DNA from: Haladaptatus sp. QDMS2
Lineage (GTDB): Archaea > Halobacteriota > Halobacteria > Halobacteriales > Halococcaceae
Assembly: GCF_029338295.1 (NCBI RefSeq)
Contig: NZ_CP119791.1
Location: forward strand, 1,922,001-1,986,000
Reading direction: 5' to 3'
DNA: 64,000 nucleotides
Positions within the stretch are counted from its first letter, which is position 1. Each line of letters starts with the position of its first letter. Below, piece after piece: positions 3,990 through 5,657 of the stretch. The translations under genes and the position numbers were made by a program. Below the pieces are notes generated by a model that was not told the origin of the DNA, did not search any database, and saw only the letters and a list, made by a program, of their open reading frames with translations.

Positions 3990-4046
3990 GACCCCGCTTT
4001 TCGGCGGGACTATTTAGGCTACCTGCTGTCGGTCGCGGCGACTCCC

Positions 4047-4199
4047 TTACCGAACGACCGTCACCGTGACCGCACCGCACTCGCACTCGTAGGCGCGACG
4101 TTCGCCGACCTCGGTTCGCATCGAGAGCATGAGGCGGTCGTCGTGCAGCGTGCGACCGCACTCGGGGTTCTCGCAGGTGCAGGTGAGTTTCTCCAACAT
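4047..4199 (-). CDS. Small zinc-ribbon protein (50 aa)
   Basis: 50 residues beginning MLEKLTCTCENPECG and ending ECECGAVTVTVVR. Cysteines at 7, 9 and 14 and the pair at 39 and 41 suggest a rubredoxin-like knuckle or zinc ribbon. A TATA element (minus strand CGATTTAACA, about 4224-4232) lies about 30 bases before the ATG, so the mRNA is probably leaderless. That supports a real gene despite its size. It is one of several tiny zinc proteins in this window. Confidence 0.72.
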   Translation of the reverse strand: MLEKLTCTCENPECGRTLHDDRLMLSMRTEVGERRAYECECGAVTVTVVR

Positions 4200-4307
4200 A
4201 CCTCAGGGATGGCACGCTACCACTGTTAAATCGACCCGTGCGCGGAGTGAAAGTGAAAGTACAGGAGAGCGTCACCGTCACTGGTGAGTTGAACGAAATT
4301 CAAAGCG

Positions 4308-4478
4308 TTTAGGTATCACTCGTATATGCTGGTCGTCCCTCACTACAAGATGAGGGGAGAGGGTGACCTCGATGACGCTCTACGGCTCGTTACGGGGGTA
4401 GCGAGTGGGACTACGATCCGCGGCCAGAGACGGACGCTGCGTTCGGGCTCGTTGGGGGCGGGCCCGTCGGTTCCGTTT
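4308..4478 (+). ncRNA. Candidate structured non-coding RNA
   Basis: This lies in the only gap longer than 300 bases (4200-4766). A TATA-like TTTAGGTA at 4308-4315 predicts a start near 4338. Three hairpins follow: CCCTCA/TGAGGG (4337-4342 with 4351-4356), an eight-pair stem CTCGTTAC/GTAGCGAG (4386-4393 with 4398-4405) capped by GGGG, and GACGG/CCGTC (4429-4433 with 4464-4468). A T-run ends the segment (4475-4478). The second stem needs a U-G pair that works only on the plus strand. No RNase P, SRP or tRNA motif was found, and no convincing ORF. Confidence 0.35.
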
Positions 4479-4606
4479 TCTGGGTATATGAATACGCCGT
4501 ACAGCGCAAGGGTTTGTTTAAATACTGAATTCGTGTCATGCCACACCGTAACGCATCCCCGTATAGCGATTGTTACGTGCTTGCATAGGTCGCAGGATGC
4601 ACAACA

Positions 4607-4749
4607 TTTATAACGTCGCAGTGGGTATTACCGAGTACCAGAACGCCACCGGCGTTTGGCAGTACAGCACGCAGAATGACAGGGACAACGTGTTATCGGC
4701 TGCTTATCATCCCCACTGAGTGGCAACTGCCACGCGCCGGTGCGGTAAT
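4607..4749 (+). promoter_or_regulatory. TATA box and hairpin-rich leader of the COG1340 gene
   Basis: TTTATAA at 4607-4613 is a good TATA box. The start codon is about 130 bases past the predicted start site, unusually far for a haloarchaeon. The leader holds two perfect hairpins: AACGCC-ACC-GGCGTT (4642-4656) and GTGGC-AACT-GCCAC (4720-4733). ATTACCG (4627-4633) and CGGTAAT (4743-4749) are exact complements that could close the whole element. It may be a regulatory leader or a separate small RNA. Confidence 0.4.
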
Positions 4750-4766
4750 GGAATCGTGAGTTAACT

Positions 4767-5657
4767 ATGGTACAAACGCTAGACCAGTCCAAAAACATCG
4801 AACTGACAGAAGACGACCTCGACACTGATTCTAAAGGCCAACTCATCAAACTCGCTGGCCAGCTCCGAGACCGACGAAACGAGCTGAATCAGATGGCCTC
4901 CGAACGCGCAAGCAAGCGCGACGAACTCAACGCGAAGACTCGTGAGGCCGTAGACAAGGCCCAGGAGCACCGCGAACAGCGTGACTCGCTGAACGAGCAG
5001 GTTCAGGAGCACAAGAAGCTCCGCAACGAGCTCAACGCGGAAGCAAACGAGCTGTTCGAGAAGGTCGAGTCGATGAAATCGGACCTCGAACTCGACAACG
5101 GCAAAGGCCTCGAGGAGCTCAAGAAGGAAATCGAGCAACTCGAATTCAAACAGCAGACCGAGGTTCTCTCGACCGAAGACGAGCGCGAACTCATCGAGAA
5201 AATCGAGAACAAGCGCGAGGAGTATCAGGGCCGCAAAGAGAAACTCGACGACAACGACAATCTCGAAGAACTCGTCGCCGAAGCAGAGGAAGTGCGCGCC
5301 GAGGCCAGCCAGCACCACCAGAAGGTGACGGAACTGGCAGACAAGGCCCAGCAGCACCACAACGAGATGATCGAGGCCTACCGCGAGGCCGATGACATCC
5401 GTGACAAAGCAGACGAGATGCACGAGAAGTTCGTCGAGGCCCAGGAAGCGGCCGACCAGCACCACAACGACTTCGTGCGCGTCCAGAAGCGCCTCCGCGA
5501 GATGGACAAGGCAGAGGAGAAAGAACGCCGCTCCGCCCGCGAGGAGAAGCGCGAGGAAGCCAAGGCAGAAGCCGAGGAAATCTATCAGCGCTTCAAGGAC
5601 GGCGAGACCCTCGACACCGAGGACCTCATGAAGCTGCAGAAGACCGGGATGCTCTAA
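4767..5657 (+). CDS. COG1340-type long coiled-coil protein
   Basis: 296 residues, almost entirely charged heptads (Glu, Lys, Arg, Gln with Leu spacing) from about residue 20 to 275. This is the archaeal COG1340 coiled-coil family, sometimes wrongly labelled phosphoserine phosphatase. No membrane segment or catalytic motif is visible. His pairs recur as QHH at spacings of 14 and 35 residues, in heptad register. The C-terminus (EIYQRFKDGETLDTEDLMKLQK) is a conserved short tail. It probably has a structural or scaffold role in the cytoplasm. A T-run (5672-5676) after the stop may terminate it. Confidence 0.82.
   Translation: MVQTLDQSKNIELTEDDLDTDSKGQLIKLAGQLRDRRNELNQMASERASKRDELNAKTREAVDKAQEHREQRDSLNEQVQEHKKLRNELNAEANELFEKVESMKSDLELDNGKGLEELKKEIEQLEFKQQTEVLSTEDERELIEKIENKREEYQGRKEKLDDNDNLEELVAEAEEVRAEASQHHQKVTELADKAQQHHNEMIEAYREADDIRDKADEMHEKFVEAQEAADQHHNDFVRVQKRLREMDKAEEKERRSAREEKREEAKAEAEEIYQRFKDGETLDTEDLMKLQKTGML

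Follow-up and report, generated by a model that had tools for sequence, protein, structure and literature searches.

The longest gap between open reading frames in the 64,000-nucleotide stretch of Haladaptatus sp. QDMS2 DNA analysed here (the window) is best read as having, for its functional element, the 5' leader of the mRNA of the downstream gene, DUF7121, an undescribed structured RNA. This leader is a probable cis-acting structured element, as two of its helices, P1 and P2, covary, and its position is fixed upstream of a single gene family. It also holds a short open reading frame (mini-ORF), and translation of this frame would, with a probability of roughly 0.64, melt the leader hairpin and couple translation to that of DUF7121.

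Position and Conservation of the Leader

The gap (4200-4766), which was measured at 567 bases and is the longest in the window, as the preliminary description had stated, is flanked by a zinc-ribbon ORF at 4047-4199 on the minus strand and by the DUF7121/COG1340 ORF at 4767-5657 on the plus strand. The features of the region are as follows:

4308-4478, plus strand: earlier candidate, with a promoter-like block, three hairpins and a T-run; genus-specific, structure mostly unconserved
4607-4613, plus strand: TATA-like TTTATAA, presumed own promoter of the leader, 29 nt ahead of the conserved UACCAGAACGCC
4634-4766, plus strand: 5' leader of the DUF7121 mRNA, structured; the coordinates are those of the homologous region, and the transcript probably begins near 4632-4636
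4638-4640, plus strand: P0 5' arm, CCA, nearly invariant, predicted to pair with UGG at 4749-4751 in single-sequence and consensus folds
4642-4656, plus strand: hairpin H1, AACGCC-ACC-GGCGUU, which excludes P1; possible alternative state
4647-4654, plus strand: P1 5' arm, CACCGGCG, pairs with 4735-4742
4658-4663, plus strand: P2 5' arm, GGCAGU, pairs with 4726-4731
4676-4759, plus strand: mini-ORF (uORF) of 27 codons and a stop, MTGTTCYRLLIIPTEWQLPRAGAVMES, the 3' half of which spans the 3' arms of P2, P1 and P0
4726-4731, plus strand: P2 3' arm, ACUGCC, pairs with 4658-4663
4735-4742, plus strand: P1 3' arm, CGCCGGUG, pairs with 4647-4654
4749-4751, plus strand: P0 3' arm, UGG, predicted to pair with 4638-4640
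4767-5657, plus strand: gene of the DUF7121 (PF23435) coiled-coil protein, Pfam E 2.2e-144

Conservation in the gap is strong at 4632-4766, which is 97-98% identical to both congeners, while in the same alignment the third codon positions of the DUF7121 gene reach 80-84% and two spacers of the gap 41-58%. This conserved block starts some 20-25 nt past TTTATAA and extends to the DUF7121 start codon, and the spacing from the TATA-like element points to transcription starting near 4632-4636. In the other leaders inspected, TATA-like elements were seen by eye at about the same distance ahead of the same UACCAGAACGCC sequence.

Two promoter-like blocks, at 4306-4330 (GTTTAGGTATCAC) and 4511-4545 (TTTAAATAC), lie upstream of the TATA element of the leader and exceed the neighbouring spacers in their conservation within the genus; the promoters of DUF7121 may be in tandem. 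Towards the zinc-ribbon gene, GGAGTGAAAGTGAAAGT (4244-4260) lies inside a block (4219-4262) with 95% identity to both congeners; it occurs at three places in its own genome with at most one mismatch and may be the site of a regulator.

The preliminary description had recognised no known RNA motif, and this was borne out by Rfam 15, which gave no match at the gathering threshold in the whole window or in six leader-bearing loci, and by ARAGORN, which found no tRNA. A permissive Rfam scan of 4000-4900 returned one chance-level hit (11.3 bits against 48), and a simple bacterial-type scan of the window placed no terminator-like site within 4634-4766. Among open-licence PMC papers, the term 'DUF7121' was not found, nor was anything on such a leader in titles and the beginnings of abstracts.

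Covarying Helices

Folded singly, eight leaders largely take one shape, a long imperfect hairpin with P0 (CCA/UGG), P1 and P2, and in one of the eight (L159) H1 forms in place of P1. The leader of the window folds better than any of 200 shuffled sequences (z -3.9), and the other leaders range from -4.6 to -0.4 (the last being L104). Because these z-scores vary so widely, the argument rests on covariation and not on stability alone.

A covariation scan of the whole MAFFT alignment, which used 64 of the 69 rows (five were left out for a wrongly picked start), proved less sensitive and yielded just one pair at a tree-based E below 0.5, located in P1, and the helices were therefore tested as units. 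In 51 leaders, changes on both sides were present in seven of the eight pairs of P1 and four of the six pairs of P2, and the covariation scores of both helices were reached by none of 500 structure-free alignments simulated along the leader tree. Against 500 nulls, the two-sided-change measure of P2 was reached once; its G statistic was not above the null (229/500 reach it). When the arms were swapped among 64 leaders, P1 gave a z of -11.8 and P2 of -8.7, with none of 5000 permutations as good in either case, and six control pairings gave values between -0.8 and 0.7.

The second pair of P1 illustrates the pattern, being UA in 24, AU in 18 and GC in three of the 51 leaders, with at least five double changes on an independent tree of 42 proteins. 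A further helix, P3, and an apical pairing were put through arm permutation and tree-simulated nulls and found unsupported, the covariation of P3 not being raised (68/500 nulls reach it).

H1 and P1 are mutually exclusive, having nucleotides in common, which makes it conceivable, if only suggestive, that H1 is an alternative state to P1. The duplex permutation of H1 (z -3.4; 7/5000 as good) supports it less than P1 is supported, both-side changes occur in just two of its four tested pairs, in one sequence each, and in the window P1 is favoured over H1 by about 12 kcal/mol.

The Mini-ORF within the Leader

The apical part of the leader carries a near-invariant GAAUGA, and the AUG(A) within it is conserved in 193 of 198 leaders. 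In the window, the frame that it opens stops 7 nt ahead of the DUF7121 start at 4767 (+7). The exceptions are natural start-codon variants, with ACG in four genomes (G041, G052, G053 and G028; leaders L180, L175, L232 and L234) and CUG in a fifth (G026).

The frame counts are based on 88 leaders dereplicated at 88% identity, kinship being handled by this dereplication alone. The mini-ORF frame stays open until at most 15 nt remain before the DUF7121 start in 87 of the 88; the two other frames do so in 53 and 54, and 300 base shuffles in a mean of 37 (maximum 48). The stop falls between -10 and +13 nt from the DUF7121 start in 81 leaders, against 23 and 22 in the other frames, and the seven leaders outside this range are L034, L041, L044, L083, L099, L126 and L197, among them a Haloferax leader (L126) with its stop 22 nt upstream of the DUF7121 start. 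Within -8 to +6 there are 62 of the 88 (other frames, 19 and 20), the window, at +7, being outside. The spacing is -4 in three leaders and -1 in none, a gap of +1 to +22 nt is seen in 50, and all three phases of the mini-ORF to the main gene occur (48/20/20).

Three further counts, on long leaders, on pN/pS and on Shine-Dalgarno (SD)-like matches, come from an earlier leader set, from which six leaders were set aside for a wrongly picked main start and in which a non-homologous AUG was used in L062, L115, L173, L232 and L234. In the mini-ORF frame, every one of the 18 leaders above 170 nt in length is open, against 11 and five of the 18 in the other frames. Over 201 close pairs, which are not independent, codons 2-9 have a pN/pS ratio of about 0.4, where the other frames give 0.6 and 1.0, and constraint on the RNA may explain this mild constraint on the early codons. 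The codons from the tenth on have a ratio of about 1.1, where the other frames give 0.6 and 0.4. Of 86 leaders, 73 have an SD-like match of at least 4 nt ahead of the start, where shuffles give 53 (sd 4).

The peptides vary from about 20 to 75 residues. Their N-termini follow a weak pattern, M-[TI]-G-N-x(3)-R, and their C-termini are unrelated, since all three frames of the same conserved 3' RNA are used. What is mainly kept is thus translatability from the conserved AUG to the main start, and not the peptide made, because the frame is open, the codons from the tenth on are free and the C-termini are unrelated. A conserved AUGG in the 3' part was also considered as the start of a tiny uORF and was dropped, as its U is an A or C in some leaders (by eye).

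Distribution among Haloarchaea

The regions upstream of DUF7121 were gathered from 208 loci (80 named haloarchaeal, 48 obtained via genome searches and 80 fetched directly), which may contain one species twice, under a named and an unnamed record. A motif-based extraction recovered the leader in 198 of them. Those without an extracted leader were L049, where the gene is at the contig start, L068, where the leader is truncated, and L203, L227, L229, L236, L237, L238, L239 and L240; the covariance model matches L203 and L229, L227 at an E of 0.36 only, and none of L236-L240 at E 1 or better.

The covariance model (R1) was built from 51 of the 64 dereplicated leaders (alignment A1), with 13 more divergent ones left out. 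It matches 104 of 117 Halobacteriales genomes, 16 of which had supplied sequences to it, leaving 13 without a match, and 93 of the 96 that are of good quality. It occurs once per genome, except for three second matches at E 0.01-0.1, and in all 104 genomes the best match is on the contig of DUF7121 and adjoins its start. Relative to the start of the DUF7121 profile match, the R1 matches range from 16 nt inside it to 258 nt ahead of it, 100 of the 104 being no more than 46 nt ahead and the other four, at 78-258 nt, owing this in part to a profile match that begins inside the protein.

In a sample of the phylum, R1 matched 23 of 148 genomes; these are all but one of the 24 Halobacteriales, and the 124 others gave no match. 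DUF7121 is present in 145 of the 148. Within the order sample, no R1 match was obtained in families f2, f9 and f11; the large runs used stricter filters, by which weak matches are lost. Five Haloferax loci (L104, L106, L107, L112 and L113) have the leader, and DUF7121 was detected in H. volcanii as a control. In Natronorubrum bangense, DUF7121 is found on both chromosome and plasmid (L065 and L067), with leaders of equal length and identical mini-ORF peptides.

The Candidate at 4308-4478

The preliminary description had placed an unknown plus-strand structured RNA in the gap, at 4308-4478. Such an RNA does exist in the gap, but at 4634-4766 and as a leader, not as a free RNA. The three hairpins and the T-run that it listed are present in the sequence at 4308-4479: the first pairs CCCTCA (4337-4342) with TGAGGG (4351-4356), the middle stem joins 4386-4393 to 4398-4405 in eight pairs with a GGGG loop and one U-G, and the T-run is at 4476-4479. 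The plus strand of 4330-4480 folds moderately better than chance (z -1.77; 8/200 shuffles as good), and the minus strand does no better than chance (z -0.39; 69/200).

The genus comparison for the gap covers three genomes in all, so two congeners. The pairs kept in the two, by alignment, are 4/6 and 6/6 in hairpin 1, 2/8 and 2/8 in hairpin 2, and 12/22 and 11/22 in hairpin 3; over the whole candidate they are 24 and 25 of 54 predicted pairs, with three and five changed on both sides. The conservation with compensatory changes that was expected of the orthologous gap is thus lacking, hairpin 1 excepted, and the argument for a plus-strand RNA from the U-G pair concerns a stem that is absent from both congeners.

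An independent structured small RNA at 4308-4478 is, given this, distinctly improbable. In its favour are the promoter-like block (4306-4330), which is 76-80% identical to the two congeners, the position of hairpin 1, the hairpin and T-run at the 3' end, present in all three genomes, and a terminator-like site with its tail (4460-4473), the one found there by a simple bacterial-type scan, where shuffles would give 0.5 (sd 0.6). Set against these, the body (4333-4478) is just 55-59% identical, the fold z-score and the losses in hairpins 2 and 3 are as given above, and, of the listed matches in 57 genomes outside the genus, those that touch the region are all short. Because the promoter-like block and the 3' hairpin with its T-run are common to the genus, the candidate could be a fast-evolving transcript, and a genus-specific one of about 4335-4478 is possible given these two features and the shared position of the first hairpin.

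Proposed Mechanism and Its Rivals

In the mechanism proposed for the leader at 4634-4766, the RNA folds into one long imperfect hairpin (P0-P1-P2), of which covariation shows P1 and P2. The mini-ORF, which is evident as a constraint on the sequence, opens with the start codon in the apical part, passes through the 3' arms of P2, P1 and P0, and ends roughly a dozen nt or less from the start of DUF7121. Ribosomes on the mini-ORF would melt the hairpin and, after termination, either restart at the DUF7121 start codon or make it available for initiation, while with the mini-ORF untranslated the hairpin would stay closed and DUF7121 would presumably be poorly translated. The peptide itself would seem not to matter, the first codons perhaps excepted, and the natural points of control would be initiation at the mini-ORF or an exchange between P1 and H1.

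Coupling is proposed because frames in H. volcanii couple by reinitiation and SD-like matches precede most of the starts. According to PMC6728339 and PMC3986360, haloarchaeal SD motifs serve reinitiation and not de novo initiation. As for the distances, PMC10666635 gives -8 to +6 nt as its authors' window for efficient stop/start coupling in Haloferax volcanii, a separation of about 20 nt that almost abolished coupling there, and -4 as the commonest overlap reported for its gene pairs; it also cites a study that saw a roughly tenfold loss of coupling at +3 nt, and for two E. coli pairs it found the final 15 nt of the upstream gene to be enough.

Overlaps of -4 and -1 are rare among the leaders and the +7 of the window is outside the -8 to +6 range, and confidence in the coupling model was therefore lowered. 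Larger gaps between stop and start would be tolerable, on the other hand, under hairpin melting, a second mode of coupling described in PMC6728339.

One alternative to this model is a regulatory leader whose structure acts like a riboswitch or is recognised by a protein, perhaps by DUF7121 itself; the AUG would then be part of a conserved loop motif and the open frame a by-product. The covariation of P1 and P2 speaks for it, the near-invariant loop around GAAUGACAGGG could be an RNA or ligand motif, the mutually exclusive H1 and P1 resemble a two-state switch, the AUG gives way to ACG or CUG in 5/198 leaders and the spacing to the main start is often outside the usual overlaps. Such a leader leaves unexplained, however, why the AUG frame, unlike the others, is open in 87/88, why the stops lie near the main start (81/88) in all three phases, and why 18/18 long leaders are open, and it is judged unlikely for these reasons.

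A functional micro-protein co-expressed with DUF7121 would account for the conserved start, the N-terminal pattern and the pN/pS of about 0.4 in codons 2-9, but it is at odds with a ratio of about 1.1 from codon 10 and with a three-frame reading of the conserved 3' RNA that yields unrelated C-termini and lengths of about 20 to 75 residues, so that it seems very unlikely. That a trans-acting small RNA is cut from the leader, or that the leader also serves as one, would agree with a compact element present in one clear copy per genome and with a presumed promoter of its own; yet the simple bacterial-type scan placed no terminator-like site within 4634-4766, the best match adjoins the same gene in 104/104 genomes and the frame constraint suggests translation, which leaves this reading hardly credible.

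DUF7121 and the Probable History of the Upstream Gene

An AlphaFold2 model of DUF7121 is a coiled coil of almost all helix (mean pLDDT 87, pTM 0.58). The top matches of a Foldseek search with it, for the most part further coiled coils and bundles of helices, reached an E of 0.05 at best and were uninformative. Solved structures were found neither for the RNA nor for DUF7121, the best PDB sequence match having an E of 0.12.

The gene order upstream of DUF7121 was surveyed in 40 regions of genomes for which a leader match was either not obtained or not to be expected. A SerB-like tail, recognised by eye, lies directly upstream in 14 of the 40, and the families with a SerB-like gene before DUF7121 are f9, f18, f19, f23, f24, f25, f31 and f32; six of six tested examples were above the serB cut-off. 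In f9, which belongs to the same order, the serB stop and the DUF7121 start overlap as ATGA (-4) in three of three genomes (two by script, one by eye), and in the present genome serB is about 0.79 Mb from DUF7121.

Other arrangements were also seen among these regions. In one locus of f24 (L278, genome G152), serB and DUF7121 form a single open reading frame, a natural fusion that suggests a functional link between the two. In f19 (L273, L290, L300 and L307), a conserved TCGTGCATTAGAAATGCATGAAATGCCAGC stands between serB and DUF7121, followed by GCTGG where visible, with only the last part of the stretch in L307, and this stretch is possibly a different leader element. A different tail, perhaps of a gene for serine hydroxymethyltransferase, precedes DUF7121 in L275, L276, L282, L291, L301 and L304 (f21, f22 and f30).

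To judge from the gene order, the mini-ORF leader probably replaced an upstream serB that had once been coupled to DUF7121 by a stop/start overlap, and the simplest account of the mini-ORF would be that of a stand-in for the lost upstream gene.

Significance

A wider reading, which is possible and is put forward tentatively, is that of a haloarchaea-wide ribosome-gated switch, in which a mini-ORF with a nearly free peptide sequence would have taken over from serB, once that gene was separated from DUF7121, the delivery of terminating ribosomes to DUF7121, and the H1/P1 exchange would sense a signal, such as the translation state, ion strength or DUF7121 itself. If true, this would place a conserved cis-regulatory RNA among organisms whose structured leaders have been judged not typical. 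About 70% of the transcripts of two model haloarchaea are leaderless according to PMC8303175 and PMC6728339. Present in single copy in 104/117 Halobacteriales, and better conserved within the genus than the third codon positions of DUF7121, the leader clearly departs from this.

The Haloferax loci that carry the leader provide a ready test case, and the leader offers a simple way to study translational coupling once a gene pair has been broken. It also gives a handle on DUF7121, a coiled-coil family of 145/148 genomes on which no functional study was found among open-licence PMC papers.

Comparison with Known Systems

The likeness to coupled translation is better supported than any claim of membership in a class. 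As in the termination-reinitiation pairs of Haloferax volcanii and E. coli (PMC6728339, PMC10666635), an upstream stop lies close to the next start, but those pairs are real genes, mostly with overlaps of -4 or -1. The leader, on the other hand, has a mini-ORF with little constraint on its peptide, a conserved fold and a spacing that is often +1 to +13. The serB-DUF7121 pair has the same downstream gene, with the -4 nt overlap in f9, and its upstream partner is an enzyme frame of 215-250 codons.

Coupling through the melting of structure, as described in PMC6728339, is similar in that translating the upstream frame would open up a long-range RNA structure and uncover the start behind it; it differs in that the present case is a dedicated leader and that, in the window, the 3' arm ends 15 nt before the start codon and does not cover it. 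The S15 leader of Halobacteria, which is among the archaeal ribosomal-protein leaders of PMC7247131, is likewise a covarying cis-acting leader. The DUF7121 leader differs from it in that it precedes a non-ribosomal gene, carries a mini-ORF and has no Rfam match.

In leader-peptide or uORF attenuators, a short frame in a folded leader controls the next gene, and in one study a uORF was reportedly combined with a B12 riboswitch. The DUF7121 leader has the same arrangement of a short frame in a folded leader before the next gene, but with no clear stalling peptide, the frame being open and the amino acids free from codon 10. Coupled translation and structured leaders are thus both of known kinds, and what is new is their combination in a conserved mini-ORF leader across most of the sampled Halobacteria.
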